Below are positions 6,964-24,377 of a stretch of 24,377 bases of DNA, one piece after another (within the stretch, counting starts at the first letter, position 1; each line of letters begins with the position of its first letter). The position numbers and the translations under genes were made by a program. Under the pieces are notes generated by a model, which did no database searches, was not told the origin of the DNA, and worked only from the letters and a program-made list of their open reading frames with translations. Source of the DNA: a virus; the IMG/VR virus record IMGVR_UViG_3300034109_000413, positions 1 through 24,377 of that record; one strand, written 5' to 3'.

Positions 6964-9900
6964 TTATTTTATCCTAAAATAAAGAATTTCCCCTTCTACA
7001 ATTTTCAATTCACTCATTAATTTATTTGAAAGTCCAATTCCATAACCATCGATAAATGGTCCAACATTAACAGGACCTGAAACATTCAAAGTATCGACTC
7101 TTCTGTCCAAATCGTAATTTGGATTAAGTGTAAATTGTTTATTATTATTAGGGTTCAAGAATTCGGTAACACCCGTGATTATTTTATCTGCAGTTATACT
7201 TTTACTAAATTGAAACTTAGTTGAATAGAAATAATGAGAGTTCGACAATTCTTTAAGTTCTGACCACTTTAATCCGGTTTGTCCTTCAGAATTTACGTTA
7301 ATAGTATTTTGAAGTTTACTCAATAATGACATGTGTGAAGAATCTGATAATTCATATATGGTAGATTCCAATCCCATTCTGGCAACTTTTGCTCTAAACC
7401 ATTCACCTTCTTGTCCATTTTGTTGTCTATAGGTAACTTTCTGTATGTATTTTTCATTACCATAACCATTAAATGGAATACCAAATTGACTAATTCCTGA
7501 AGTATTAATAAGTTGTTCACCATTAATCTTAATTGTTCCCATATCGGTAACAAAATTTCCAAAGTCTGTTCTAATTGTTTGTTCGGTTGTACTGGTAGTA
7601 TTTGCAGATTCTATCTTTTTAACAACCGCACGAGCAGCATTTGTTATCTTATCAAATAGTGACTTATAACTTGATACAAACGAATCTTCAGGGTCAGGTA
7701 ATGCGGCAACCGGTATTCTCGTACCTTTAAAACTTGTTTCAATATTATTATCTCTAATATTATGACTGACTTCAGTAATCCAATAAGTTCCTCTAAACAT
7801 TGGAATATTCTTCAGATAAAAATACATTGTTGGTTGTATCATAACATTACCCATACAACTCACATCACAAGAATAAGATGCCTGTCTATAGTAATCAAAC
7901 AAACTAACATCAACATTGTATGTACCAGCACCTGATTCAGATCTTGCAAGATTTTCCAAAACAATGAATGATTCTGATGAGTTTTTTAATGTTGTTTGGT
8001 CCAATGACACCCCTTTAAAAATGTTTTGATATTGATCACCAAAACTTACTTCAAAGGCAACAACCTTATTAGATTTATTTAATTGGTCAATATCATATAA
8101 TTCAGGTAATGTTGCAATTAATGGGTTTTTATTTCTATTTGAAATGTCAAAACTATCATCATTAAATTTATAATCTTTACTCATATCCGATGGATGTTTT
8201 GATGTGGGTCCTACGAATTGAATGATTATTTTAGGTGATGATTCTTCATAATCAACATCTAAGAATGTACCGAATAAATTCTCAGCAACTTTTTTAGAAG
8301 GTGTTATTTTAGATCTATTTGAAATATTTGTCCCATAGAAATTGATATATGCTGGTAATGCTCTCATATCAAATCCAGTACCTTTTAATAATGTAGATAT
8401 TGCAGAATACAAATCTATATTATCGTTTCTATCATCAATTAAATCAATGAATTTACTTAAATTTAGATAAGTTTTACTTCCAATGTCTCTATTTGCTCGA
8501 TCTAAAAATAGAAACTCCTCAAATAATAATCTTTGTCCGAGTGAATTTCCCGCAACCCACTTATCATTAAATGATTTAAAACTATTATAAAGTTCAACTT
8601 TGACCTGTCTATTATTATAACCATCAACAAAATTGACGGCAAAATCATTTCTTTCTAATTTTAATGATGGAAACTTTGATATTAATTGTATAAGAAATAA
8701 ATCTAATCTATTATTTGATCCACCAGTTTCGTTTGTGGTTGTTTTTTTATCTATTATGTTATTTTTTAAATAAAGTGAAAACTGTTCTCTTGTATTGGTT
8801 CCATTAAACTTTAGATATCCACCATAAATAAGAATTAGAGGTCTAAATAACAATACATTTTCTTCATCCAATCTTATGTCTGAAATTCTAAAAAAGTCTT
8901 GATATGTGATTCCTGAGTCAGGATTTTGTCCAACATATAATTCAATATATTTTGTATTACCACTCTGAGATGTAAAATCATATGACCCCCACGATTCAGT
9001 CTGATCAATATAGTTGTTTAATACATATGCATCCAATTCTTTTGGATTACCTAATGTAATTTTAAGATAGTTATCTGCTTTTGTTAGTTGTTCAGATAAA
9101 ACAACTAACTTTTGTTTTTGTCTACTTTTAATTTTTAATATGATATCTTCTATTTCCGTTCCATCATCTGATTTCTTTTCAATTTTTACAATTTCCTTTA
9201 ATAATTTTTGAAAGTTGTCATATTTTACCTTGGGGAATTTTTTAAACGGATCTTCAATATCAATCAATTCAGAACTGAATTGTAGAAATATTTCCTCAAA
9301 CTCATCTAAAATCTGAGGACTAAATGTCCCAATTAAATCAAAAACCTTCTTTTGATTTGAACTGATTGCATATATGTCTCTAGTTAGACTAATATTGTAT
9401 TCATCATAATCAAAAAATGTTTCACCACTAAAACTGTCATTGATATATTCATCCTGCCAAAGTAATCTAAAATTAAGTTGTTCAGTTTTGTCAAAATCAA
9501 AATCAGATGGTTCAACACCAACCTCATCTTTTAAGTTAATGTATTTGTTACCACCATCACTAGGTAAAATGGTATAAGACATATCTTTAGTGTCAAATTT
9601 TGAATTATCTACATATTGTGTCCAATAATTCAAACCATTTTCTTTAGGTCTAACTCTTCCATTTATTTTTTGACTAACTGTATTACCTGAAAACGATGTA
9701 TTTCCAGAAGAAACTACGTAGTGATTGTAATCATTAACAACTTGATGATAAATTGCATCATAGAAAGGATGAACACCAACGTCTTTATTATTCAAATAAT
9801 TCACATTTGTTGAATTAAATGTAAAAGTTGTAAATGTTGTTCCAGTTTCATTATTATTAAAAAATAAATCAGTATTAATATTAGTGGTTGTGGTATTACT

Positions 9901-12768
9901 GTTAGATGTTGTGAACCCTGTTAAAATATCTACCCCTTCCAATACCTTTCTTTTATATCTATGATATATTGATCCCCATTTAACAATAAGATGATATGGT
10001 ACATAGTGAGTTGCACCAATTTCTCTAAAAATTGATGACATTCTTTTAGGTGGTAGTAATGTAGTTCCTCCTTGTGTTCCCGATTTTGATAATCTTATTT
10101 CATCTTCTAAATCATGATATGGTAATGAATTCAAAAATAGATATGCTGAACCGGCATATTTTCCAAAAGAACTTGTTTTTGTAAAATCACTATATAATTG
10201 TTTATGAAAATATGGTGTATTCAATATATTTGTTACATTCTTTCCAACAAATAGGGATTGAGTAAACATGTTAAAATTCTCAGATAAATCAAAATATGGT
10301 GGTTTTATCCAATTAAATCTATCAAATGGTGAAGATATAAAATCATTACCAACGACACCGACTCTAAACAAACCTTCGAATTTAAGTTCATCATCAGTAA
10401 AACTATCCTTTTCAATGTAATCTAAATAAGTGTTGGAACTAAATGGAAATATGTTTTTTCTATATGATTCGGGTGTATAGTTAATTAAAAAATTATCTAA
10501 TTTCACATATGGAGTTGTGTCAGTTTTTCCTGTTAACGTTTCATCATATTGTTCAATTTTAAACGGAGTAGATATTACCTCTTTAATATATCTTGTTGTG
10601 GGTAATGAATCTTCGTAATATGGAAATCTCTCATATGGTGAAAGTTTTTCCATATAATCTAATAAATCATCTTTTGATTTTATATAATTTTTTAATATGT
10701 CAATAATATCCAACTCTTCTCCTGCAATTTCTTGAATCATTCCAAATTCAATCTCAGCCAATTCTCTCAATACTGTTGAATTAAACGAATCGAACATTGT
10801 AATTTGTAATGCTCTTTCATAAATTTCATATAAGAATGATACCGGTCTTCTATCTGAATATGGTAGTGTTTGTTGTATTTTGAATAGTTGACTTACGTCC
10901 TTAATCCTCGATTCATCTTGATTACTATCAAAGATATATTGTAAATCATTTACACCACCTTCTTTTTCAACCAATGGGTCTTTAACATTTGTTGAAACAC
11001 CCATAAATTCTTCAACGAATGAGACTTCAGGCCATAATATACTGTTAAATGATTGTAACTTACTTTGTAATTCAGGTTCACCCGGATACGCAATTACTCT
11101 CTGTTTATCACCTGGTGTTGTTTTTTTAATTTCAGGCCACGGATATATGGAATCCCCAAACTCATCTGAGAATTTACCAATTATTCTTTTTCTTTCTTCC
11201 GCCAAATCAAATGCGTCAGAATGAACATCTTTCATTAACCTAACATATACTTCGGCGTTTGCCATTAATATTCCGAAAAGATTCCTTACTGTCGGTTCAA
11301 ATCCAAAACCTTTTTTAGGGTCTTTGATAATTTCATTCATCTTTCTTTCAATCTCCTTTTCTACTTTAACATTTTGTTCGAAAAAGACTTTTTGAAGTGT
11401 TTGAATATCCGATATAATTCTCTCAAAAAATATATAATATTTCGTTGAGTCACTAGATAAAATACCATAATAGGAATCTATTGGTAATAGTGAATTGGAC
11501 AATAATTTTGTATCAACTCCCGCTCCACCACTTTTAACATTGTCATTGAATACTTTCTGTTGTTTTTTAAGTTGTTCAGAAAAAGTCGTTATAATGTATT
11601 CTAAAGTATCATTGTTAGTTGAACCTGTTACTAATGTTAAATCAAGTTTGTTCTTTGATTTTAACGCATAGGCTCTGGACACTTCAGAGTTAAAAGTAAA
11701 TTGGTCACTATAAAGTGTTAAATCTAAATTTTTATTTTTCCATCCGTTTACTTTGATTTCAAAGTTTTTCAGTACTTCTCTATATGTCCTAATACCATCT
11801 AAGACTTTGGGGTCTATTACCTCATCAAAAATCTGTTGTTCCAATCTTTTATCAAGAGTTGATGCTAGTGCACAAATTTCTCTCAGAGTTCTAACAGGAA
11901 GGTCTTCAGGAATCAATTTTTTCTGTTTCATTTCAGAATAAACCGATTGTAGGATTTGATATCCTTTGGATGATTTTAACGCTTTCTTTTCATATAATCC
12001 AGTTTTTTCATTAAATGACTGAGAACCTTCAATAGTTCTAATAAACATATATGGAGCATTCAACACCGCCTTCAATGGGATGTCACTCAAGTAAGCGTAT
12101 GTTGAACCGACAAATTTTGTTGTCACCTCAAAATTACCACTATTGGCATTAAATCTTGAGCTAAATGAAACTAAGTGAAGTCTATATCTAATCGCCTTCC
12201 CATAATAACCTTTTATTGTAAGGTAGAATATTGGCCAAGGAATATGAAAAAAACTTTTATATGGTGAATTTTCAGGGGAATCGAATAGTGTTTTACCTCT
12301 AATATCTGCAAACTCTATTGTTATTTGTGGAATAAGATTAGCACCTTTTATTTGTACTGATATACTTTCAATACCAAAAGATTGACCTGTCCCATCATTT
12401 TGAAAAAAATCACCAGTTGTGTTCCCGTCTTTAGATTTTCTTTCTGTTCTCTCTAAATACGCATCGGTCCAATTAGTTGTGAAATTTCTATCGTTTGGGT
12501 CTGTTGAATCACCAACTTGTGATGAAAGGAAATTTAATGTTCCTTTGGCAATACTTCTTAAAGAGTTTTTGTCTCCATCGGAAGTGAGTGTTGTTCTTGG
12601 TATAATATCTGCTTCAAGATTGACATACATTACCAGTCTTTCTTGAGAAACACTTCTTGGTTGAACCTCATTATTAACTAATACACTATTAGGATCGACA
12701 TAAATTAAATTATTTTCGTCGGTCTTAATTAATATATTTTCACTATTTGATAAATCATTGTTCGCCAT
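6964..12768 (-). CDS. Giant baseplate hub-like protein (1934 residues)
   Basis: The protein is probably the baseplate hub at the tail tip. Two regions support this. Residues about 135-225 form a beta-rich segment (GIESISVQIKG, ITIEFADIRGKTLF, IKGYYGKAIRYRL) like the barrels of contractile-tail hub and tube proteins. Residues about 1625-1690 contain MGNVMIQPTMYFYL, FRGTYWITEVSHNI and ETSFKGTRIP, the pattern of gp27/gpD/XkdQ hub domains. Between them lie long helical and beta segments with no clear relative. The last 230 residues are beta-rich and unassigned. Gene order (tape measure, tube-initiator-like, LysM, this gene) matches hub position in other myophages. T4 gp27 is only 391 residues, so most of this protein is extra. 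The start overlaps the LysM gene by 14 bases. Hub is likely; the functions of the added regions are unknown. Confidence 0.8.
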   Translation of the reverse strand: MANNDLSNSENILIKTDENNLIYVDPNSVLVNNEVQPRSVSQERLVMYVNLEADIIPRTTLTSDGDKNSLRSIAKGTLNFLSSQVGDSTDPNDRNFTTNWTDAYLERTERKSKDGNTTGDFFQNDGTGQSFGIESISVQIKGANLIPQITIEFADIRGKTLFDSPENSPYKSFFHIPWPIFYLTIKGYYGKAIRYRLHLVSFSSRFNANSGNFEVTTKFVGSTYAYLSDIPLKAVLNAPYMFIRTIEGSQSFNEKTGLYEKKALKSSKGYQILQSVYSEMKQKKLIPEDLPVRTLREICALASTLDKRLEQQIFDEVIDPKVLDGIRTYREVLKNFEIKVNGWKNKNLDLTLYSDQFTFNSEVSRAYALKSKNKLDLTLVTGSTNNDTLEYIITTFSEQLKKQQKVFNDNVKSGGAGVDTKLLSNSLLPIDSYYGILSSDSTKYYIFFERIISDIQTLQKVFFEQNVKVEKEIERKMNEIIKDPKKGFGFEPTVRNLFGILMANAEVYVRLMKDVHSDAFDLAEERKRIIGKFSDEFGDSIYPWPEIKKTTPGDKQRVIAYPGEPELQSKLQSFNSILWPEVSFVEEFMGVSTNVKDPLVEKEGGVNDLQYIFDSNQDESRIKDVSQLFKIQQTLPYSDRRPVSFLYEIYERALQITMFDSFNSTVLRELAEIEFGMIQEIAGEELDIIDILKNYIKSKDDLLDYMEKLSPYERFPYYEDSLPTTRYIKEVISTPFKIEQYDETLTGKTDTTPYVKLDNFLINYTPESYRKNIFPFSSNTYLDYIEKDSFTDDELKFEGLFRVGVVGNDFISSPFDRFNWIKPPYFDLSENFNMFTQSLFVGKNVTNILNTPYFHKQLYSDFTKTSSFGKYAGSAYLFLNSLPYHDLEDEIRLSKSGTQGGTTLLPPKRMSSIFREIGATHYVPYHLIVKWGSIYHRYKRKVLEGVDILTGFTTSNSNTTTTNINTDLFFNNNETGTTFTTFTFNSTNVNYLNNKDVGVHPFYDAIYHQVVNDYNHYVVSSGNTSFSGNTVSQKINGRVRPKENGLNYWTQYVDNSKFDTKDMSYTILPSDGGNKYINLKDEVGVEPSDFDFDKTEQLNFRLLWQDEYINDSFSGETFFDYDEYNISLTRDIYAISSNQKKVFDLIGTFSPQILDEFEEIFLQFSSELIDIEDPFKKFPKVKYDNFQKLLKEIVKIEKKSDDGTEIEDIILKIKSRQKQKLVVLSEQLTKADNYLKITLGNPKELDAYVLNNYIDQTESWGSYDFTSQSGNTKYIELYVGQNPDSGITYQDFFRISDIRLDEENVLLFRPLILIYGGYLKFNGTNTREQFSLYLKNNIIDKKTTTNETGGSNNRLDLFLIQLISKFPSLKLERNDFAVNFVDGYNNRQVKVELYNSFKSFNDKWVAGNSLGQRLLFEEFLFLDRANRDIGSKTYLNLSKFIDLIDDRNDNIDLYSAISTLLKGTGFDMRALPAYINFYGTNISNRSKITPSKKVAENLFGTFLDVDYEESSPKIIIQFVGPTSKHPSDMSKDYKFNDDSFDISNRNKNPLIATLPELYDIDQLNKSNKVVAFEVSFGDQYQNIFKGVSLDQTTLKNSSESFIVLENLARSESGAGTYNVDVSLFDYYRQASYSCDVSCMGNVMIQPTMYFYLKNIPMFRGTYWITEVSHNIRDNNIETSFKGTRIPVAALPDPEDSFVSSYKSLFDKITNAARAVVKKIESANTTSTTEQTIRTDFGNFVTDMGTIKINGEQLINTSGISQFGIPFNGYGNEKYIQKVTYRQQNGQEGEWFRAKVARMGLESTIYELSDSSHMSLLSKLQNTINVNSEGQTGLKWSELKELSNSHYFYSTKFQFSKSITADKIITGVTEFLNPNNNKQFTLNPNYDLDRRVDTLNVSGPVNVGPFIDGYGIGLSNKLMSELKIVEGEILYFRIK

Positions 12769-13081
12769 AATATAAATTATACAATTCCACTCCTCTTTTG
12801 TAATCTTGTAAACTACTATTCAATGGAAATGGTATTCTTAAAATAAAATTGTCTTGTAATTCAAACTCATTAGTTCCGGCATTTGCATTTGCTGTCATAA
12901 TTAACCAACCAAATGTTGGTGTATTATAAAACTCTTGTGATAGTTTGTCCAATCTATCTTTTCCACGTCTAAACGTATGATATCTATCGGTTCCTTTAAT
13001 CGGCAGTTCAATTCCCGGCACAATTCTAAAATTGCCATCACCTACGAAAAATTGATACCTATCAAAATAAATTCTACTCAT
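12755..13081 (-). CDS. LysM-like baseplate protein (gp53/gpX-type)
   Basis: This 108-residue protein has a LysM-like core at about residues 30-85: KGTDRYHTFRRGKDRLDKLS, EFYNTPTFGWLIMTANA, then a strand ending FILRIPFP. LysM-fold proteins occur in baseplates of contractile tails (T4 gp53, P2 gpX, the LysM part of XkdP), where they join the tube base to the hub or wedge. There is no signal peptide, so it is not a secreted peptidoglycan-binding enzyme. The gene sits between the two giant baseplate genes, sharing ATGA with the upstream stop (13078-13081) and overlapping the hub gene by 14 bases, which points to translational coupling and balanced production. The assignment is good at family level; the exact T4 counterpart is less certain. 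Confidence 0.85.
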   Translation of the reverse strand: MSRIYFDRYQFFVGDGNFRIVPGIELPIKGTDRYHTFRRGKDRLDKLSQEFYNTPTFGWLIMTANANAGTNEFELQDNFILRIPFPLNSSLQDYKRGVELYNLYYGEQ

Positions 13082-16000
13082 GGTCTAAAATAATTTAATT
13101 TATCATCCGTTGGAGGAATGTTATATTTACTTTTTAATTTTTTAACCTCTTTTTTGATTTCATCATCAGTTAATTCACTTTCTGTTACCATAAATGATAT
13201 TTCCTTTTCATTTTTTCTATTTTTAAGTTTTTTGAACTTAAAACTTTTATCTTTTAGTGGTGAACTGATAAACGAATCAAATTTCTTCTCTATTTTTTCA
13301 ACAGTTTTTTCATCAAATATTGTTGTGTCAACCGAAAAAACCGCTTTAAAAGATGACTTATCTTCCTCTTTTAATAATACAGATAATAATTCAGAAAGTG
13401 TATCGGTAGAAATATCGGGACTATTAAAATTTATTGATGTATCTAAATCTTCATATAATTTGTCTGAATTCTCTTGAAAATAATTTACACAGTTTTCATA
13501 TTCATCATATAATAAATCATATGTAAATCCTGATAACGTACCTTTAGTTACAACATCCTTTTCAATTTTTACGTCGTAACCATATTTGACAACAAAATTA
13601 AGTTTATCAAACGCGTCAATAACTTCGTTTCTAACCGTTATAAAATCACCTAATTGTTTTTTATCTGATATACCATTAATTTCTTTTTCAATAAAATCTT
13701 TGAAAAATGGTTGTAAAAGTTCATTGGCTTTATTTTGTTTTGGTACTGATAAAATACTATCAAGATTCATCATTTGACTAATATTAATAGTTTCCAATAC
13801 TTGTGTCATTTTAATTTTTAATGCATTTATATAAAATGATAAAGGCCGACTTTTAGCATATTCACCAAATAAATCAATAGTTAAACCCGCACTTGAAGAT
13901 GTTGTGTTGAAAACATCATATGTTTTAATATCTCTATAGTTAGGATGTAGAATCATTGTTGAAATGGATGTACCATAATCTTTTACAAAAAGATTATATA
14001 GTGTTGGGTAACTATCAAAATATTTTTCAGAAGTCTCATATAAAGTGTTTACTAACCCATCATATCTTAATGAAGACTCTGAAAGTACACCAATAAACTC
14101 ACCTTCCACCAATTCATTACCTTTATTATCATTCGTAGATTCTTCAGGTTTTGGTATTCTTTCGTTTATTTTTTCTAAAAACTCTTTTGTGAATTCTTCT
14201 CTATTTTTACCATCAATTGTCTCCGCAGTGTTGATTGACCTTTCATCATACATCTCAGTATTTGCATAGAAATTAGATGATAATGCGTTTTGTAATCTCT
14301 CAACTGGTCTTGATAGACCTTGTCCACCAATAAAACTAATTTGTAATGTAACATTAGCAATCATTGGTTGAACACCAATACCCTCTGGGTTTAAATCCCA
14401 TGTAGAATCATCAAATGTTATATTAATATCTTTAATAATAACTTTAGAATGATAAAAATCCCCAACTCTTAATACACAAACTGGTGGAGGACCAAATGAA
14501 GTATTTCTTGCATTCAAATCAGACGCATCTGATAATCCTTTAATTGGTATTGTATCACCCGGTCTAACACATTGTAATAAGAATGTTAGTCTTGAATTTA
14601 ATCCTTCAGGTGTTGTTGAATGAAATCCAGGGTGGAAATATTTTAATTTTTCTTTTAGTGTTTTAAACACCACAGGATCACTCTCCTCAACTTTTTGGAA
14701 ATAATAACACTCACTAAGTGTTTTCATTATAATCCTCTTCAACGGGTCAATTGGTGGTCTATTTGGTCTTGGTGTTGTTGGTTCTCCAACAGGTTCCAAT
14801 CTTGATATTATCGTTGGGTCTGTATTTGTTTGAGGTTTTTGTGGGTCGGGCTTCGTTATCTTAGTGTATTCAAATATTATTCTTGATTGTCTACATCCAA
14901 AAGCGACTGGTGCTGAAATTTTTAAAGATGAACCACCTGATGTTGATACGAATTTAAAATCTTGTGTAGAACAATTGACATTGTTTTCATTATTAAATTC
15001 TTCGCCAGCACTAATTGTTGTGAATTTTAAAACACCATCTGATTCAGTATAACCTAATTCCTTTAATGTAAATTCCAAGTCAATTTTTGTTTGTTGATTC
15101 CCTCCACCTGTGAATGTTGATGGCCATTTAGAATCTAATACTGATTTAGGATTAACGTCCTTTTTGATTCTATCTAATATATCAAGTAAAATACTATAGG
15201 TTCTTCTTATTGATAGTCTGAAGTTGTATCCATTATCTGCAAGTGCAGAGCAAGATGAACCTATAACAATTGAAAGTTCTTTTACTATTCCACTTTCAAT
15301 ATCAGTTTTCAATGTTGTGGTATTGTTTACATATGAATCAAATCCACTTCTAGCTTCACTTATTTCTCTATTTAAATCACTTATTGTGTTATTTTTATAT
15401 GTGGACGCTTCTGCAAGAGGAATATCTTTACCATACAATATTTTCTTATCATGTATTGCATTTGCTTTATTATACGTAGTCGAACCAGTCAGAATATCGT
15501 CAAGTGTAAGTGTTAAATTTGATAATGTGCCACCAGTCCAACTATCAGAACCAATTTGTGGAGTATATATATCGGTATACTTCGTACCTTTAAAATCTCC
15601 ATCAGTAATTTGAGGCCAATTATTAGCGAAATTTAAACTAACGTTTAGTTTTACAGTTTGAGAAGTATCACTAACAACAGTTGGTTCTGGTTGAACCACA
15701 ACCACGGTTGTGACATTTTTAAATCTCTCAACTGTACTTACATCTACTTTCTTATTAAGAAAATCACTTACTAATTTAGCGTCTTCAGGTGTAATGGTTG
15801 CATATCTTCTAACCAAATCGTAAAAGTCAATTTCTTCACAACCCGCAAAAAATGCATTGATATAATTTTCCGCCTCATCATCTGAAAAACCTTTGAAATG
15901 TTCCCTAACCAGTAAATTTAAAATACTTGGATGGTCAACAACAACCTTAAAAGATATTGTACCAGTTCTTTCTGTATTTTGATATGTGTAAATTGGTTCG

Positions 16001-17808
16001 GGTCTACCCAAAAATTTATTAGGATTCCAAGACGCACTATTTTGTTCACTTACTTTTAAATCATATGGTGGAAACCACATAACTCTACCACCATTTGGAC
16101 CTCTTTCACAATATGGTAAATCGTTTACTGTAAATCCGGGTACATTAGATGTTTTCCATGCCAAATTTTCAATTGAAAGCATGTATTTTTTTGCATAAAA
16201 CCCATCACCGCTAGGTAAAATGTTTGTTGACCCATTAAAGTCTTTACCACCATTTGATATGGGAGCAATGTTTAAATTCCATGAACGATCTAAAACACTA
16301 TCATCGTATTTTCTTACGTTTTGTTGTCTCTTCATGGTATCTGAATAGTTCAAATACGACCTATCTTTTGTCCATACTCTACAATACTCAACGCCACTTT
16401 CCCCACCAAATTTATCAGTATATTGAACCGCAGAACCTCTACTTAACATCACGTCACCTTCTCTAAAAATTCTACTTGTTTGGTCAATGACGTTGGCAAC
16501 GTGAGAACGAGCCTCGGCACCATTTGTTGGTAACGTATCTAAAATCTCTTGTGTATACCCAAGGATAGAATCGGTCCTAAAGTTAAAACCAGTGGATGAC
16601 GAATTATCAAAATCATTTTTTTGACTCTCCCATTCTTGGTTATTTTCACCTAACTTATTTCTTGTATTTCTACTAATCCATGTTAGTTTACCAGTAATAC
16701 TACCACCATCAGAATAGTTTCTTTTTCTTTGGAATAATTCGGTCTGAACCGGGTCAAATAAGAGACTTAGATAGTAATTACTTCTTACAGGACGATCATT
16801 AAAATCGTTCATTGCAAATTTCACATCATTACCTCTATCGTCACCAATATATGCCTGACCTACAGGTGCATCAATACCTAATAAATTTGCAACACCCTGT
16901 GCAATATTACCAACCACATTAAAAAGTCTTGAGGTATTTTGTGATCTTGCTGAAGTGGTATAGTTAGGTGCATATGTTGAATATGATAATAAGTCGTACA
17001 AAACATTTTTTTGACCACTACCCATATGTTCAATAAACAAATCTGATGGTTTTCTAGATGGTGTTGGTCGTCTACTTATACCAATTAATGAACCGAGAGC
17101 ACCTGTTACATCTTGTAAAAGTCTACCAACTCCTGTATTTGCTACAGGTCTTACATTAATTGGGTTTTGTGGGTCAGTTAAATAATCACCCGGAATGTCA
17201 GAAAACGGTAACTCAACACCAGATGCAACTTGTACAAAGTCAATTATTTTACCCGGTAAAGTTTTACTTACAGTAATTTCATAATTTGGTGCAACCAGTG
17301 GTTCTCTACCACTAATGATATTTGATGCTGTTGATATACTACCGTTTAATGCGTCACTAAGTCTATCTCGTCCATTTGTTACACGTTCTATATTTCGTGC
17401 AATTCTAGAAAAAACAGGACCACTATTTGTTAACAAGTGAGTTCCCGCAAACTTCATCAATTCTGATTCATTAGTTAAATTCTGTTGTCTGAATACACTA
17501 ATTAAATTATGATTCTGTAATTGAAAGTAGGGGTATAAATTAAGATTTGCCCTTCTTGGTATTGTTCTAATATCCTCAGTTACATTGAAATTTGTTGGTT
17601 TATAAACATTGTTTGTTTGTGGTACCCTTAACATTTCACCTCTGTTATCGTCTACATCACCCGGATTTACATTCGGAAAATCCCTTAAACTTCGAATCGC
17701 ATAATTACCTGAAGTAAAAGTTTGCGGTCCATTTGGTTTGGTAAGAGTTCTAGCTAAAATTGAATTTCGTAATTCTTTAGTAGAGTCAAAGTTTAAGTAA
17801 CTTGGCAT
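13078..17808 (-). CDS. Giant baseplate protein with tube-initiator-like segments (1576 residues)
   Basis: This is probably the protein that joins the tail tube to the baseplate (gp48/gp54 or XkdP-N type). Around residues 575-640 it has MWFPPYDLKV, SWNPNKFLGRPEPIYTY and ERTGTISFKVVVDHPSIL, and around 1110-1170 it has VLRVGDFYHSKVIIKDINIT, WDLNPEGI and NVTLQISFIGGQ. These look like two halves of a tube-like beta barrel, parted by about 450 residues that include helical, Thr/Ser-rich and Pro-rich stretches. The N-terminal 550 residues are Asn/Arg-rich and unassigned. The C-terminal 350 residues are helical and charged. It follows the tape measure gene after a 97-base gap that contains an imperfect A/T hairpin (17822-17863), and shares ATGA with the LysM gene. 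Its place supports the role; the size is far above T4 gp54 (320 residues). Confidence 0.75.
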   Translation of the reverse strand: MPSYLNFDSTKELRNSILARTLTKPNGPQTFTSGNYAIRSLRDFPNVNPGDVDDNRGEMLRVPQTNNVYKPTNFNVTEDIRTIPRRANLNLYPYFQLQNHNLISVFRQQNLTNESELMKFAGTHLLTNSGPVFSRIARNIERVTNGRDRLSDALNGSISTASNIISGREPLVAPNYEITVSKTLPGKIIDFVQVASGVELPFSDIPGDYLTDPQNPINVRPVANTGVGRLLQDVTGALGSLIGISRRPTPSRKPSDLFIEHMGSGQKNVLYDLLSYSTYAPNYTTSARSQNTSRLFNVVGNIAQGVANLLGIDAPVGQAYIGDDRGNDVKFAMNDFNDRPVRSNYYLSLLFDPVQTELFQRKRNYSDGGSITGKLTWISRNTRNKLGENNQEWESQKNDFDNSSSTGFNFRTDSILGYTQEILDTLPTNGAEARSHVANVIDQTSRIFREGDVMLSRGSAVQYTDKFGGESGVEYCRVWTKDRSYLNYSDTMKRQQNVRKYDDSVLDRSWNLNIAPISNGGKDFNGSTNILPSGDGFYAKKYMLSIENLAWKTSNVPGFTVNDLPYCERGPNGGRVMWFPPYDLKVSEQNSASWNPNKFLGRPEPIYTYQNTERTGTISFKVVVDHPSILNLLVREHFKGFSDDEAENYINAFFAGCEEIDFYDLVRRYATITPEDAKLVSDFLNKKVDVSTVERFKNVTTVVVVQPEPTVVSDTSQTVKLNVSLNFANNWPQITDGDFKGTKYTDIYTPQIGSDSWTGGTLSNLTLTLDDILTGSTTYNKANAIHDKKILYGKDIPLAEASTYKNNTISDLNREISEARSGFDSYVNNTTTLKTDIESGIVKELSIVIGSSCSALADNGYNFRLSIRRTYSILLDILDRIKKDVNPKSVLDSKWPSTFTGGGNQQTKIDLEFTLKELGYTESDGVLKFTTISAGEEFNNENNVNCSTQDFKFVSTSGGSSLKISAPVAFGCRQSRIIFEYTKITKPDPQKPQTNTDPTIISRLEPVGEPTTPRPNRPPIDPLKRIIMKTLSECYYFQKVEESDPVVFKTLKEKLKYFHPGFHSTTPEGLNSRLTFLLQCVRPGDTIPIKGLSDASDLNARNTSFGPPPVCVLRVGDFYHSKVIIKDINITFDDSTWDLNPEGIGVQPMIANVTLQISFIGGQGLSRPVERLQNALSSNFYANTEMYDERSINTAETIDGKNREEFTKEFLEKINERIPKPEESTNDNKGNELVEGEFIGVLSESSLRYDGLVNTLYETSEKYFDSYPTLYNLFVKDYGTSISTMILHPNYRDIKTYDVFNTTSSSAGLTIDLFGEYAKSRPLSFYINALKIKMTQVLETINISQMMNLDSILSVPKQNKANELLQPFFKDFIEKEINGISDKKQLGDFITVRNEVIDAFDKLNFVVKYGYDVKIEKDVVTKGTLSGFTYDLLYDEYENCVNYFQENSDKLYEDLDTSINFNSPDISTDTLSELLSVLLKEEDKSSFKAVFSVDTTIFDEKTVEKIEKKFDSFISSPLKDKSFKFKKLKNRKNEKEISFMVTESELTDDEIKKEVKKLKSKYNIPPTDDKLNYFRP

Positions 17809-17905: not shown

Positions 17906-19786
17906 TTAGGGTAGATATCCTCTAGGATTAGAGTTGTTTCCATTTACATTAACCTCAATTGGTCGTCCTTTTATTTTATCTGCTAATTGTGATAAAGAAT
18001 TGGCTGATATATCAAATGTAGTTGGAGTTGTATTTTGTTGTGATTGTGTATTTTGTTGTGTTTGTGTCGTGTTTTGAGTATTATTAACATTCAATGGTTG
18101 TTGTGGTGTTCCTGATGCCCCTTTTTGCTTTTGGTCGTCACTAACCTGCGTTTGAAGTTTTGATCTGAATCCATCCAAAGTAGTTTTTAATTCACCACTA
18201 GCTTCTTCTCCCGTAACATATTTTTTCAACATGTTATTACCCAATTTAACATATTCATCCAACTCAGCACCCATTCCCCTATATGTCTTAGCAAATTCAA
18301 CCTGCATCATGGCGGCGATTTGGGACACGTTTAATGCCATTTTTTGGGTTTCAGTGAATTGTTCCATGGCAATATCTCTTATATCCATCGTTTCAAATGC
18401 CTCTTGATTTTTTAAAATTGCATCCACAGCACTTTGTTCTAAATCTTCTAATTCTACTGTTTTACCTAATTGTTCTTGTAAAATAGCGGGTACTTCAATG
18501 ACCATTTTACCATCTTTACCCATTCTAGCAATATTTGTTAAAAACTCCTTTTCCTTTTCATCTACAGATATACCTGCACCCATTAAATCTGCAGCTGCGG
18601 ATGTTCTTTCAGCAGCGGCAATAGCCATATTTGATAAGTCTTGGTAACTCATACCAAGTTCATCTGCCATAGCTCTTGCTCTTCTAAGGTTAACACCCGT
18701 AATTTCAAATTTACCATTTTCTTCACTATATACCGCCAAAGATTCTGCAGCACCAATTAAAGCGTCTTGTAATCCTTCGACATTATTTGTAGCCATGTAC
18801 ATCATTTGAAACGGATCTCCCAAGGAACCAACAGCACCACCTAATACTTGTAAATTTGCCGCTAAGTCAATTGCCTTTTCAGGTGACATTACTTTATCTG
18901 CTAAATCAAAGACATTCTGCATGTTCATTCTAAATTCAATAGACTTTTGAACCATTCGATTTAAACCCTGAGTACCGTTTTCAAACCCATATTGGTTTAG
19001 TTTTCCAATATTTTTATTTAGTTCTTCAGTAGTTCTTCTGGAATTTAATCCTAATGTAAGTGATGATTTACCCGCCTCATTTATATTTTCTAATGTCTTT
19101 TCAGCTCCAATACCAACTAATTCAAATTGTCTAAGTACTGGACCCATCTCTTTCATATCACCAATAAATGCCCTTGATGTTACTGCCATGTTTTCCATGA
19201 TAGATTCGTTCATAATGAAAAATCTTCCAGTTTCTTTTGTTGCAGAAATAGCGGTATCGGATAAATCACTAAATGAATAACCCATACCTTGTACACCATC
19301 AAACGCTTCTACAATATTATTTCTATAATTTCTAGATAACTCACCCCCAATTCCAATTTGAGCATTTAATTGATTTCTTAATTTAACTTCATCACTTAGT
19401 ATTTTCTTCATACCATCAAAAAGATTACCTAGTCCTGTGGTGAATAAACTAGTTAACCCATCTTTTAAAGGTTTACTACCAAAAAGTGCGGTTCCAATAG
19501 TTATTGCAGCATCTGCAATTTGGTCGGCACCAATTAATTCTTGAGCAGCCTCGGCACTTATCATTCCATATCCAGTGGTAAATCCCTGTGTTGTAACCGG
19601 CTTAGGTCTACTTCCAGTTAGGTCTTTTGGTGCAGTTGGAGTTAGGTCTACATTTTTATAATATGATTGTTTTGCTGCGATAGTTTCAGGAGAAGCATTT
19701 GCATCAACATTTTCTCTGTAATATTTTTCAAATCCATCTGGATTGTTTCTTGCTAAGTCTTGTAATCTCTTATTATCTGCTGCCAT
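17906..19786 (-). CDS. Tail tape measure protein
   Basis: This 626-residue protein is predicted to fill the tail tube lumen and set tail length. It is almost wholly helical, with a small hydrophobic, glycine-containing stretch near residues 80-125 (AITIGTALFG, LTSLFTTGLGNLF). Long amphipathic segments rich in Ala, Met, Glu and Asn run to about 555. A low-complexity Gln/Asn/Thr linker (about 562-592) and a short C-terminal helix plus strand follow. The size is close to T4 gp29 (590 residues); at about 1.5 angstrom per residue the tail would be roughly 90-95 nm. It lies directly after the gp26-like assembly gene and before baseplate genes, the standard tape measure position. No peptidase or lysozyme motif is seen. 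The call rests on composition, length and context. Confidence 0.85.
   Translation of the reverse strand: MAADNKRLQDLARNNPDGFEKYYRENVDANASPETIAAKQSYYKNVDLTPTAPKDLTGSRPKPVTTQGFTTGYGMISAEAAQELIGADQIADAAITIGTALFGSKPLKDGLTSLFTTGLGNLFDGMKKILSDEVKLRNQLNAQIGIGGELSRNYRNNIVEAFDGVQGMGYSFSDLSDTAISATKETGRFFIMNESIMENMAVTSRAFIGDMKEMGPVLRQFELVGIGAEKTLENINEAGKSSLTLGLNSRRTTEELNKNIGKLNQYGFENGTQGLNRMVQKSIEFRMNMQNVFDLADKVMSPEKAIDLAANLQVLGGAVGSLGDPFQMMYMATNNVEGLQDALIGAAESLAVYSEENGKFEITGVNLRRARAMADELGMSYQDLSNMAIAAAERTSAAADLMGAGISVDEKEKEFLTNIARMGKDGKMVIEVPAILQEQLGKTVELEDLEQSAVDAILKNQEAFETMDIRDIAMEQFTETQKMALNVSQIAAMMQVEFAKTYRGMGAELDEYVKLGNNMLKKYVTGEEASGELKTTLDGFRSKLQTQVSDDQKQKGASGTPQQPLNVNNTQNTTQTQQNTQSQQNTTPTTFDISANSLSQLADKIKGRPIEVNVNGNNSNPRGYLP
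18029..18060. repeat. Short direct repeat in the tape measure C-terminal linker
   Basis: The 14-base unit TGTATTTTGTTGTG occurs at 18029-18042 and again at 18047-18060, a period of 18 bases. In the coding frame it gives repeated Gln-Gln-Asn-Thr units in a Gln/Asn/Thr-rich linker. Slippage between copies could change linker length in steps of six residues without breaking the frame. Confidence 0.85.
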
Positions 19787-19797
19787 ACCAATAAATA

Positions 19798-19980
19798 CTA
19801 TTTAGGAGTGTTTTCTATTTCAATCATATAATTGATATAATACCTCCTAATGTAGATGGGCATACGAAGGATATCACTATATGAAAATCCTCTTTTAACT
19901 AAAAATAAAATTTCGTCTAATTGTCCCTTACTATAGTCCGTAGAAAGGGCGAAAAAATTCAACCCCGAATCCAATTTCAA
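19798..19980 (-). CDS. Overlapping second-frame part of the gp26/gp51-like assembly protein (probable frameshift extension)
   Basis: This frame overlaps the end of the 249-residue gene by 50 bases and runs to 19798, where it ends 11 bases before the tape measure start. The only possible start is a TTG at 19980; no ATG or GTG lies before the overlap. The frame is +1 (equal to -2) to the upstream gene. Just inside the overlap is TTTTTTC (19957-19951), read TTT TTT CGC in the first frame. A shift there would make a protein of about 293 residues whose last 50 residues include LFLVKRGFSYSDILRMPIYI and RRYYINYMIE. That extension fits tail assembly chaperone pairs such as lambda G/GT, which lie just before the tape measure gene. 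Independent TTG initiation is the alternative; an AGGAGA lies 11 bases upstream of it. Confidence 0.6.
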   Translation of the reverse strand: MKLDSGLNFFALSTDYSKGQLDEILFLVKRGFSYSDILRMPIYIRRYYINYMIEIENTPK

Positions 19981-20680
19981 CTTGGATGTCTTCTCCTGAC
20001 GGGGTCTTTACTGTTTTCTTTAAATCTAATGATGGTTTATTTTCTTTTACAAATTTTCTGAAATCTTGTGAGTCTTTAATTGGTAAATTTTGAATAAAAT
20101 TATGAATACTCATCATTTCTTTATTTCCACCAACAGATTTTATCATCATCTCCAATTCCTTGGTTACTAATGGTGCAACTCCATTACCATTCCAACTTTT
20201 TTCAATTTCCTCTAAATCCTTTTGTTGTTTTTTAGTTAAAAATTTAAACGTAACCCCAACTTTAGATTTTTCCATAAAAAATGCAAATTCCCCATTTTCA
20301 TTTGGAGTTAAAGTAAATTCTTTAAATTTTATTTCACTTAAATCTACCTTACTTGTGAATCCTTCATTGGTTTTTGGGTCAGTTACATAAACATTAAACT
20401 CAGAACCAAAGGCGGTATTTCTTAAAAAAATTAATATGGCTTGTCTGTCCTCATCAACCAAATCATCAACACTAATATCTTTATCTAAAACTTTTCTTTT
20501 TAAAAGTTCATCTACCACAGTATTACTTTGAATAAGATTTTGTGCCGATAAAATGTTTTCATCAGATGCGGTTAGATATGCAACTCTCACTGATTTTTTT
20601 TGAGATGTGTAATGAATACCTCTACTTGGTAATTCAACAACATCATACGCAATTGTTGGGTCTACTACGAATTGTTCCAT
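19931..20680 (-). CDS. T4 gp26/gp51-type baseplate hub or tail assembly protein
   Basis: This 249-residue protein carries ELPSRGIHY (16-24), LTASDENILSAQNLIQ (36-51) and DRQAILIFLRNTAFGSEF (78-95), a pattern I associate with the T4 base plate protein family that includes gp26-type assembly factors. Such proteins help build the hub and tape measure complex and need not be in the finished virion. There is no signal peptide or membrane segment. The C-terminal half is charged and ends in a segment that overlaps a second frame leading towards the tape measure gene, so it may exist in a short and a frameshifted long form. It begins after the terminator that follows the tube gene and thus needs its own promoter. 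Family recognition is moderate; the position before the tape measure strengthens it. Confidence 0.75.
   Translation of the reverse strand: MEQFVVDPTIAYDVVELPSRGIHYTSQKKSVRVAYLTASDENILSAQNLIQSNTVVDELLKRKVLDKDISVDDLVDEDRQAILIFLRNTAFGSEFNVYVTDPKTNEGFTSKVDLSEIKFKEFTLTPNENGEFAFFMEKSKVGVTFKFLTKKQQKDLEEIEKSWNGNGVAPLVTKELEMMIKSVGGNKEMMSIHNFIQNLPIKDSQDFRKFVKENKPSLDLKKTVKTPSGEDIQVEIGFGVEFFRPFYGL
19951..19957 (-). other. Candidate ribosomal slippery site
   Basis: On the transcribed strand the sequence is TTTTTTC, read as TTT TTT followed by CGC in the gp26-like frame (codons 242-244). A +1 slip lets tRNA-Phe re-pair with TTC, its better match, while CGC, a G/C-rich codon in an AT-rich genome, may be slow. 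A -2 slip on the same run would give the same frame. The stop of the first frame is only six codons downstream. Confidence 0.5.
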
Positions 20681-20773: not shown

Positions 20774-21262
20774 TTAGTAAACTTGGATACATCTATCCAT
20801 TCTTAAACCACAAGTGATAGTTGCCAATTCATCTCTTGAATAATCCAAATCACCAAAGTTTAAGTTGGTAATGAATGTACCTTGAAGAATCCATTTTTCA
20901 ACCACAACACCAGTTGGGTCTAACATTTCAATTTCAATATCTTTTTTATATCCAGCAGCATATCCCATTCGACCAGTAACTGATTCCGCATGTAAACGGA
21001 ACCATTCCATTAATGCTTGAGATGCTGAAGGACCAATTGGGTCTTTAAATGTTACTTGCATTTCTTCCCATTCAAATCTACCAGCAACATACGTTGATGT
21101 ATTCAAGAAAGGGATTGGGACTGAGTTAATTTTTGCTTTAGGTCTTGAAGCGGATGTAACATACCATTCGTTAATTCCCAAAGTTGATGGAAATCTAACG
21201 ATGAATCGGTTTTGTCTTTTCGGTTCGTAAGGAACCGGCATTTTCATTAATAAATCTGCCAT
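20774..21262 (-). CDS. 19: Tail tube protein, T4 gp19-like
   Basis: This 162-residue protein is the building block of the inner tail tube through which DNA passes; T4 gp19 has 163 residues. It shows the family pattern: KRQNRFIVRFP (15-25), WYVTSASRPK (33-42), FEWEEMQVTFKDPIGP (63-78), LMEWFRLH (84-91), then WILQGTFITNL and a C-terminal strand with DELATITCGLRMD. It lies after the sheath gene, the usual pairing in contractile tails. A terminator precedes the long leader and another follows the gene, so it appears to be a single-gene transcript, which suits a protein needed in many copies. The ATG has an A-rich leader with no Shine-Dalgarno sequence. Confidence 0.95.
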   Translation of the reverse strand: MADLLMKMPVPYEPKRQNRFIVRFPSTLGINEWYVTSASRPKAKINSVPIPFLNTSTYVAGRFEWEEMQVTFKDPIGPSASQALMEWFRLHAESVTGRMGYAAGYKKDIEIEMLDPTGVVVEKWILQGTFITNLNFGDLDYSRDELATITCGLRMDRCIQVY

Positions 21263-21545: not shown

Positions 21546-24377
21546 TTAGATATTATCAAATGATGCTCCTGTAGGAGTAATGATGAATTCAACATCAATA
21601 AATTCAAGAGAACGTGTAGGTTTTACATAAATTTTTCCTCTAAGTGTGTTTGCATCAATATCTTCTGGATCGTTTGATACTGTTACACGGAAGTCAAATA
21701 AACCTCTTTCTTTCTTAATTGACTCAAGAATTGGATTTACCAATCTCAAGAATTCATTTCTAACTTGTTCGTCATTTTGTTCAAACAACAATCTAACTGC
21801 TACCGCTGAAATTAACTTTCTAGCTCTCAATAATAGTCTTCTTACGTTGATTCTATCAAGTGCGGACTCTCTAACCTGAAGGGTTTTGTTACCCCAAATA
21901 ATTGTTCCAGTATCAGAGAATGTTGCAATTGGGTTGATTCTGTTTTTGTAAAGGTCATCTCTTTCATCAAGAGTTAACTTTTTGTACGCTTTAACCGCAT
22001 TTACCAAACCTCTTGAGTAACCCGCCACAGCAAACCATGGATAAGAAACGTTATCGGTTAATGCGATGTTTTTAAGAACTTCACCTGTTGGTGGGAGATA
22101 CAACTGAGTTGCATTATCACCATCTCTTACCTGAATCCATGGCCAGTAGGTTGCGGAATAGTTACTATCCAATGCAACAGAATCCAAATCATCAATTACC
22201 TCTTCCGCAGTTGTTTTATTTGGTGAGTTAATTATATAAAGTGAATCTGCTCTATCATTTTCAATCATCTCAATTGCTTGAGTTACTAATGAACTATGGT
22301 CGAAGAAGTTGATACCGGGTGTTGCGAACACGTTAATATCAATTGCTTCGGGGTTTGCGAATGTATTGATACCAGCTAAGTATGAGTAGTAATCGGAATT
22401 ACCTGATACAGAACTGAATACACCACTATTTGTGGTATGACCATTTACATATGTTGGTCTACCAAATATAAATCCGTCTCCATTTGTTCTAACATTTCTG
22501 TAGATATCCCAACCATCGAATCCACCAAATACTGCGAAAGTAAATTTACGGAAATTAATATTTTCTAATTGTCCTTTATCTGCACCTTCTAAATTATATG
22601 GTGTACACTGATATGTTACTCCTGTTATAGTGGAAGCGTTGGTAGATAGGTGGAAACCAAAAGTTTCAGTTGTAGCACCTAATCCTTTATATTTCAATAA
22701 ATCTCTATCAAAACCAACTTGAGAAGAAAGACCTAAAGATACTTTTCTTACTTTATCTCCGTTTGATAAAATTGGAGTACCATTTACATCATAAGAGATA
22801 ACATCACCTGAAGAATAGTATTGTGTTTTGTAAAGAACATTACCTAATTTACCTGTTGAACCAAATACACTGTTATTTTTAAATCCTTTGAAACCAGCAG
22901 GGAATGCGTCTATTGGGTGATTATCAGCCATAGATAACATGATGTATCTTGAACGTAATTCATATTCACCATCAGATGTACCTACTTTTTTAGCAATATA
23001 ACCAGGTAAATCTGGATTTAAATTACATCTTGTAAATTTCTCCAATACAACAAGAGTATCGTCAGTATCGTTAAAGTCTCTAACAATCAAATCGAAATCA
23101 CCGGTGTCCAAATCAATATTCTGAATTGTGATTTTTACTTGGAAGTTAGCAGATTCTCCATCAGAAATTGTAATTACCTCAAATAAGTCAGCAACTTCAC
23201 CACCTCTAACTTCAGAAACAACCATAGGTGATATTGTAGTATCCCATTGTCCTAAGAAATTGTTACCGTCGGTCTCAACTTCAACTGAAGTACTCAAACC
23301 TCTAATTAATCCCTTATCAAATGCAGTTTTTAACAAATTAGGATATGACTCGTGTACATAAAGTGGGAATTCTGATTTAACTTTATCAAAAACTTCAGTT
23401 CCTAATACTTTAGTAATGTATTTTGTAGAGGTCGTGTCCAATGAACAAGTGAATGATTTAGCACCAGACGTACTACCAGTTACATTCAATGTAAATTCAC
23501 CCAATGGATTAGTATCCAAATCGGAACCTGTTACTTCAGAAATTCCTACAGTTGAACCGGTTACTTCCAAAAGAAGTGTTTGTCCACTATATGATCCTCT
23601 CGGTCTTAATGCTGCAACAACAACATTATGATAGTCAGAATTTAATTCTGCGGTATACTCGTATCTTGTTACATTGAAGTGGTCATCTTCCCAAACAAAA
23701 AGATATGAATATACGTCTGTGATTGTTGCACCACTATTGAAAAATATGTTATACCATTCTTTTTCATGGTTTGATGTTTCATTATCCACACCCGTCAATG
23801 GTGAGATAACCTCATCAGATGCTGTTAACGCTGCAACGTCATCTTCATCAGGTCTACCAATTACGAACCATTTGTCATTATCTGCCGATGTAAAACCACT
23901 AAAGTTTTCTTCGATATAATCTGTAATTGATGAACCATCGTGTGCGGTTTTACCTGATAATTGACCTGAAATTGTACCACCCGTTACAGGATCAAATGTT
24001 AAACCTGTGGTTGATGTGTAACCTGTTAAAGTTATACTAATACCACCTAATGTTTTAATACCAAAAGTTTTATTTGGTTTATAACCTGTTAAACCTAAAA
24101 CTCTGGTTACGAATAATTGATTTGACTCTTCTAAATAAGATTTTGCAACATATGGTAATTCATATTTTGGATTACCCTGACCATCTTTAACTGGTGAGGT
24201 GGGACCAAAATATGTTTTGAACTCGTCAAAGTTGCTAATTAAAATTGGTTCAAATGCTGGCCCCTTTAAGGCTTCACCAACTAAACCGAGTGTTGTTACA
24301 CCCACACTTTGAGCCACAAATGTTAAATCCTTCTCTGAGGTGTATACACCGGGAGAAACGAAAACTCTGTTTGAACT
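21546..24377 (-). CDS. 18: Contractile tail sheath protein, T4 gp18-like (partial, start outside window)
   Basis: The frame stays open to the right edge, giving 943 visible residues. A GTG at 24317 is unlikely to be the start, because the 20 codons before it encode VFVSPGVYTSEKDL, the typical sheath N-terminus (T4 gp18 begins near LLSPGIELKE). The next part, VGVTTLGLVGEALKGPAFEP, also fits. The C-terminal third has the sheath domain: ATFSDTGTIIWGNKTL, INVRRLLLRARKLI, then FRVTVSNDPEDID and a final strand pair. Sheath subunits surround the tube and contract during infection. T4 gp18 has 659 residues, so about 280 extra residues are present, mostly in a Thr/Ser/Gly-rich middle region (about residues 110-470) likely to form surface domains. 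A strong terminator follows the stop. Confidence 0.95.
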   Translation of the reverse strand, partial: SSNRVFVSPGVYTSEKDLTFVAQSVGVTTLGLVGEALKGPAFEPILISNFDEFKTYFGPTSPVKDGQGNPKYELPYVAKSYLEESNQLFVTRVLGLTGYKPNKTFGIKTLGGISITLTGYTSTTGLTFDPVTGGTISGQLSGKTAHDGSSITDYIEENFSGFTSADNDKWFVIGRPDEDDVAALTASDEVISPLTGVDNETSNHEKEWYNIFFNSGATITDVYSYLFVWEDDHFNVTRYEYTAELNSDYHNVVVAALRPRGSYSGQTLLLEVTGSTVGISEVTGSDLDTNPLGEFTLNVTGSTSGAKSFTCSLDTTSTKYITKVLGTEVFDKVKSEFPLYVHESYPNLLKTAFDKGLIRGLSTSVEVETDGNNFLGQWDTTISPMVVSEVRGGEVADLFEVITISDGESANFQVKITIQNIDLDTGDFDLIVRDFNDTDDTLVVLEKFTRCNLNPDLPGYIAKKVGTSDGEYELRSRYIMLSMADNHPIDAFPAGFKGFKNNSVFGSTGKLGNVLYKTQYYSSGDVISYDVNGTPILSNGDKVRKVSLGLSSQVGFDRDLLKYKGLGATTETFGFHLSTNASTITGVTYQCTPYNLEGADKGQLENINFRKFTFAVFGGFDGWDIYRNVRTNGDGFIFGRPTYVNGHTTNSGVFSSVSGNSDYYSYLAGINTFANPEAIDINVFATPGINFFDHSSLVTQAIEMIENDRADSLYIINSPNKTTAEEVIDDLDSVALDSNYSATYWPWIQVRDGDNATQLYLPPTGEVLKNIALTDNVSYPWFAVAGYSRGLVNAVKAYKKLTLDERDDLYKNRINPIATFSDTGTIIWGNKTLQVRESALDRINVRRLLLRARKLISAVAVRLLFEQNDEQVRNEFLRLVNPILESIKKERGLFDFRVTVSNDPEDIDANTLRGKIYVKPTRSLEFIDVEFIITPTGASFDNI

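Follow-up and report, generated by a model that had tools for sequence, protein, structure and literature searches.

Does the gp26-like gene between the tail tube and tape-measure positions of a T4-like phage end at its own stop codon, or is it also read, through a change of frame, into a second open frame that overlaps its 3' end? The question is raised by a 24,377-nucleotide stretch of viral DNA (IMG/VR record IMGVR_UViG_3300034109_000413, positions 1 to 24,377; hereafter "the window"), whose gp26-like gene codes for 249 residues and is followed by a frame with no conventional start. Comparison of its sequence with those of related phages argues strongly for a real, conserved programmed frameshift, most likely in the +1 direction, which would yield a short and a long tail-assembly chaperone. 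On this reading, a one-base forward skip by some ribosomes at UUU-CGC would let a single message yield both chaperones.

Overlapping frames and a conserved putative shift site

The 249-residue frame (the 0 frame) ends ...GTT GAA TTT TTT CGC CCT TTC TAC GGA CTA TAG, with six codons separating the T-run of TTTTTTCGC (19957-19949) from the stop. The second frame, +1 relative to the first, is open from stop to stop over 69 codons (20007 to 19798) and ends 11 bases 5' of the next gene's start codon. On re-reading both frames, we find the coordinates, the T-run position and the 50-base overlap (counted from the first TTG, at 19980) of a first-pass annotation of this DNA to be correct. That annotation had also described the second frame as lacking an ATG or GTG start and offering a single TTG: neither ATG nor GTG is indeed present near its start, but the overlap holds three TTGs, and an internal ATG sits 29 codons into the extension.

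Scanning viral contigs returned 72 relatives at 53-100% identity, of which 70 span the junction and are hereafter counted as window-clade loci; codon-level comparisons used 40 non-redundant members of this clade. The sequence GAR TTT TTT CGN CCT TTC TAY is intact in 70/70 loci, the core TTT TTT CGN CCT carrying CGC in 53 of them, CGT in 13 and CGA in four, and all 70 have an open +1 frame with the same C-terminal domain. Arg244 is a CGN codon in all 40 non-redundant members although AGA makes up 88% of the arginine codons in these genes, and Phe242 and Phe243 are both TTT in 40/40, while the other seven conserved phenylalanine columns all mix TTT and TTC. Beyond the 0-frame stop, the +1 frame displays coding periodicity and a low ratio of non-synonymous to synonymous changes (median dN/dS 0.094), and the extension is, by these measures, under selection at the protein level. 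Since the motif is intact in 70 relatives and the second frame evolves as a protein, the overlapping arrangement is, on this comparative evidence, not a product of chance.

No ATG, GTG or TTG able to start the +1 frame is present in 27 of the 70 loci. Eighteen of the 40 non-redundant members have a stop that shuts the +1 frame immediately 5' of the last three codons preceding the new frame, and the frame change is therefore confined to ~30 nucleotides around TTTTTTC. The programmed shift at TTTTTTC put forward by the first-pass annotation is thus supported across the clade by an invariant slippery site and a 3' frame that is always +1; T-run and second frame are conserved together, and a 3' frame with its own ATG next to an unconserved T-run was not found in the clade.

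Both influenza PA-X (PMC3498833) and plant amalgaviruses (PMC5052127) shift +1 at the motif UUU_CGN, where tRNA-Phe moves its pairing from UUU onto UUC, perhaps aided by the delay at a slow CGN codon. In the window the motif stands in the register suited to +1 entry into the second frame. CGC accounts for 2 of 7,764 window codons (0.26 per 1000), and the shift site is the sole in-frame TTT CGN there; a 170-kb relative has CGC at 12 of 50,695 codons (0.24 per 1000) and carries a tRNA-Arg for AGA and none for CGN.

In the mechanism that we propose, most ribosomes would read 249 codons and halt at the TAG, which would yield the short form, the counterpart of lambda gpG and T4 gp26. A fraction would stall where the A site holds the rare CGC and the P site holds UUU with its tRNA-Phe, which would then step one base forward onto UUC, a move probably favoured by a hairpin refolding behind the ribosome; reading would resume GCC CTT TCT... 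for 50 codons. The product would be a 293-residue long form, like lambda gpGT and T4 gp51, with GVEFFALSTDYSK as the predicted junction peptide, to which a -2 slip would add one extra phenylalanine.

Site variants across the wider family

A wider set of 237 loci combined the first scan, two further scans and five cultured-phage loci. A hidden Markov model of the C-terminal domain placed that domain in the +1 frame in 230 of the 237, and in no other frame; the seven loci without a match are five cut contigs and two divergent phages (GXN1 and RAS14). Among the 230, 48 have no ATG, GTG or TTG in the +1 frame from the last stop to 20 codons beyond the site. The site itself varies by clade: TTT TTT CGN characterizes the window clade, TTT CTT TGG and TTT CTA TGG the Flavobacterium immuto clade, and TTT TTT TGG is common to many other clades, while a 484-kb phage has TTT CTA TTC. 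In Streptococcus phage GXN1 the site is TTC TTT CGT and the +1 frame is open, and +1 frames also occur in Bacillus SP-15 (TTT TTT CAC) and Rhodothermus RM378 (TTT TTT TGG). Used alone as a query against phages, the 52-residue extension gave no match.

The putative long chaperone is missing from the annotation of cultured relatives (Flavobacterium immuto phages and Microcystis Mel-JY01) because their records list the extension as a hypothetical protein of its own, and it could easily be added. The +1 extension is so listed in the immuto (L075:3854-3964) and Mel-JY01 (L076:3728-3964) records, in the former shortened at an internal start.

The extension lies in the -1 frame in RAS14, Atu_ph07, a 595-kb phage, Rhizobium IC12 and the cyanophage clade. 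When Atu_ph07, GXN1, RM378 and SP-15 served as seeds, the scans returned almost nothing beyond the seeds, and the -1 or +1 assignments there therefore rest on single genomes. For the cyanophage homologues (L262-L341), the C-terminal domain is in the -1 frame in 80/80, with an invariant octamer TTTTTTCG read as NNT TTT TTC GNN in every case, i.e., in the opposite register to the window clade. Because an ATG stands one codon past the stop in 65 of these 80 loci, re-initiation may be a possible alternative there.

Direction of the proposed slip, a probable upstream hairpin and competing explanations

A probable CCCCR/YGGGG stem lies 5' of the site. Its closing pair, G-C in some relatives, becomes A-U through changes at two synonymous sites, and its consensus energy is -8.9 kcal/mol, versus -3.3 for the next best segment of the gene. 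On 70S ribosomes, hairpins upstream near the E site are known to promote +1 shifting and to reduce -1 shifting (PMC6321510), an effect that this stem may share. No conserved RNA structure was found 3' of the site in the window clade; the window-clade hairpin was not found in the TTT TTT TGG clades, and the TTT CTT clade has a short CCAAT/ATTGG palindrome only. Within the 5' side of the hairpin, TCAGGAGA (19992-19999, minus strand) hardly changes among relatives, despite codons that would allow variation. For all its likeness to a Shine-Dalgarno sequence, it was rejected as a stimulator of that kind, being ~35-40 nucleotides upstream and thus too far, in a window whose gene starts lack such signals. 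These starts have AT-rich leaders without Shine-Dalgarno signals, as in Bacteroidota phages.

The first-pass annotation had allowed for a +1 or a -2 slip. A -2 slip, as known in Mu (PMC5009743), would take tRNA-Phe back two bases from UUU to UUU, with UUC read next and an extra phenylalanine in a product of 294 residues; the first TTT, which it needs, is also invariant in the clade, where such P-site re-pairing is possible. It is poor, however, at TTT CTA and TTC TTT CGT, and relatives with these sites or with TTT CTT enter the same frame without good -2 pairing, and TTT TTT is followed without exception by a rare CGN codon, which the +1 motif requires. Because the CTA and TTC TTT CGT sites allow UUU to UUC re-pairing at +1 without good -2 pairing, +1 is favoured for the family, and we consider a -2 slip improbable. 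The same relatives bear on slippage of RNA polymerase along the T-run, which would leave a subset of transcripts one base shorter. The window offers it six Ts and the TTT TTT TGG clades seven, six being short for polymerase slippage; but phages with TTT CTT, TTT CTA or TTC TTT CGT arrive in the same frame with no run of that kind, and neither the rare CGN codon nor the hairpin would have any part to play, which makes this source of a +1 product very unlikely.

Production of the extension as a separate small protein, from an internal start codon or by re-initiation, could draw on the TTGs of the window overlap and on the ATG right after the stop in most cyanophage homologues (65/80). Yet 27 of the 70 window-clade loci have no usable start codon in reach, many members have a stop three codons ahead of the site that shuts the +1 frame, and the shift-site codons would have no need to be invariant, so that we give this explanation scarcely any credence. 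Homopolymer runs are prone to sequencing error, and an error or a decayed gene might likewise leave two overlapping frames; the same arrangement nonetheless recurs in contigs of many separate metagenomes and in cultured phages, and both frames are under purifying selection. Error or decay is refuted by this conservation of the arrangement, leaving it a negligible probability.

Several points weigh against the programmed +1 shift or parts of it. The frame alone cannot separate +1 from -2 in the window clade, because TTTTTT also allows -2 re-pairing, and the rarity of the A-site codon is that counted in the phages. The most divergent clade member (L067) lacks the hairpin, and in another (L064) its closing pair is mismatched; few independent changes on the tree support the hairpin, and for this reason it is likely, not certain. 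Homology of the extension with the tail of T4 gp51 is suggestive but weak by itself: a direct hhalign comparison of the two gave an E-value of 0.006 with a probability of 2.7%, and a single-sequence comparison with T4 gp51 found nothing.

Genomic setting and relation to known tail chaperones

The gp26-like gene sits between the tail tube and tape-measure genes (Table 1), the position expected of a G/GT-type chaperone. The 626-residue protein at the tape-measure position has no Pfam or PHROG match; its counterpart in Flavobacterium phage immuto, in the same gene order, carries a tape measure annotation. Two very large genes lie further downstream (6964-12768, 1934 residues; 13078-17808, 1576 residues), the product of the latter having a weak PHROG match alone.

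Table 1. Features of the gp26-like locus, in window coordinates.
Feature	Position	Strand	Support
Sheath gene	21546-24377	minus	
Tail tube protein gene (gp19-like), adjoining the gp26-like gene upstream	20774-21262	minus	PHROG 4542, E-value 4.5e-28; PF06841
gp26-like gene, 0 frame, short form of 249 residues, stop TAG at 19931-19933	19931-20680	minus	PHROG 150, E-value 1.5e-10; PF12322 (T4_baseplate), 39.6 bits
5' arm of upstream hairpin (ACCCCG)	20000-20005	minus	covaries with 3' arm, 96.1% of cells paired
Possible inner stem-loop within the hairpin (ATCCAA...TTGGAT)	19969-19987	minus	81.1% of cells paired; weaker support than outer stem
3' arm of upstream hairpin (CGGGGT), 8 to 13 nucleotides 5' of the P-site codon	19962-19967	minus	
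Shift site TTT TTT CGC (UUU_CGN); P-site UUU 19954-19952, A-site CGC 19951-19949	19949-19957	minus	
Putative +1-frame extension, 50 codons (ALSTDYSKGQLDEIL...MPIYIRRYY...NTPK) and stop TAG	19798-19950	minus	
626-residue gene at the tape-measure position, adjoining the gp26-like gene downstream	17906-19786	minus	gene order as in Flavobacterium phage immuto

Assignment of the gene to the gp26/gp51 type, already made in the first-pass annotation, is upheld by PF12322, by PHROG 150 and by fold comparison. The short form matches PF12322 well above the curated cut-off (24.5 bits), and its AlphaFold2 model (mean predicted local distance difference test score, pLDDT, 89.4) matches gp26-family models. 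On the PHROG 150 profile (282 positions), the match of the short form ends at position 233 and that of the fused product at 265; for T4, it ends at 235 with gp26 and at 280 with gp51. A fold search against the PDB gave no significant match (HK97 chaperone 2ob9 at E-value 3.4, probability 0.08), and single-sequence AlphaFold2 prediction of the fused window protein was uninformative (pLDDT 38.6). Nine long relative contigs (73-171 kb) carry one PHROG 150 gene each, and a T4-like second gene was not seen in these records, which may be incomplete. Given the family assignment, the profile extents and the fold match, the window phage likely follows the lambda G/GT scheme using members of the T4 gp26/gp51 family, which would act as chaperones.

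Frameshifted tail chaperones are themselves known, and T4 has been named as an exception to the rule (PMC5009743). Within the literature that we found, which covers Vladimirov et al., 2022 through papers that cite it, there is no report of a +1 version with UUU_CGN in this T4-like family; the forward direction, the use of UUU_CGN, the hairpin 5' of the site and the mirrored arrangement in cyanophages are all additions to that literature. It is tempting to speculate, at about even odds in our judgement, that homologous T4-like chaperones switched direction at one octamer (UUU_UUU_CGN for +1 here; U_UUU_UUC_G for -1 in cyanophages, with frame roles exchanged), that T4 swapped the shift for gene duplication, and that a dedicated refolding hairpin drives +1 shifting here in phages without Shine-Dalgarno signals at their gene starts. 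A +1 shift would mean that T4 relatives obey the frameshift rule from which T4 itself seemed exempt, would provide a natural series (+1, -1, two genes) for studying the evolution of recoding in one protein family, and suggests that UUU_CGN, known from eukaryotic viruses, is also used on bacterial ribosomes.

Among known systems, lambda G/GT, which shifts -1 (Mu shifting -2; Xu, Hendrix and Duda, 2004, reviewed in PMC5009743), has the same position between tube and tape measure, short and extended forms, and a site at the first frame's 3' end, whereas the window gene most likely shifts +1 at UUU_CGN, has an upstream hairpin and belongs to an unrelated-looking family (PF12322). T4 gp26 and gp51 belong to the same protein family as the window gene, but T4 splits the short and long forms over two separate, divergently transcribed genes. 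According to PMC10274946 and PMC12846349, Vladimirov et al. (2022) identified T4-like chaperone genes: some phages give the short and the long form a gene each, and others have poly-T -1 signals; as far as these citing accounts go, the poly-T genes share the T-run at the 3' end with the window clade, whose register and direction are opposite. The autoregulatory +1 shift of bacterial release factor 2 (PMC6321510) resembles the proposed one in its slip, slow A-site codon and upstream duplex, with the difference that the window gene has a sense codon and an intramolecular hairpin. Influenza PA-X and the amalgaviruses have the same motif, a rare CGN in the A site and tRNA-Phe moving from UUU to UUC, although on eukaryotic ribosomes and in unrelated genes.
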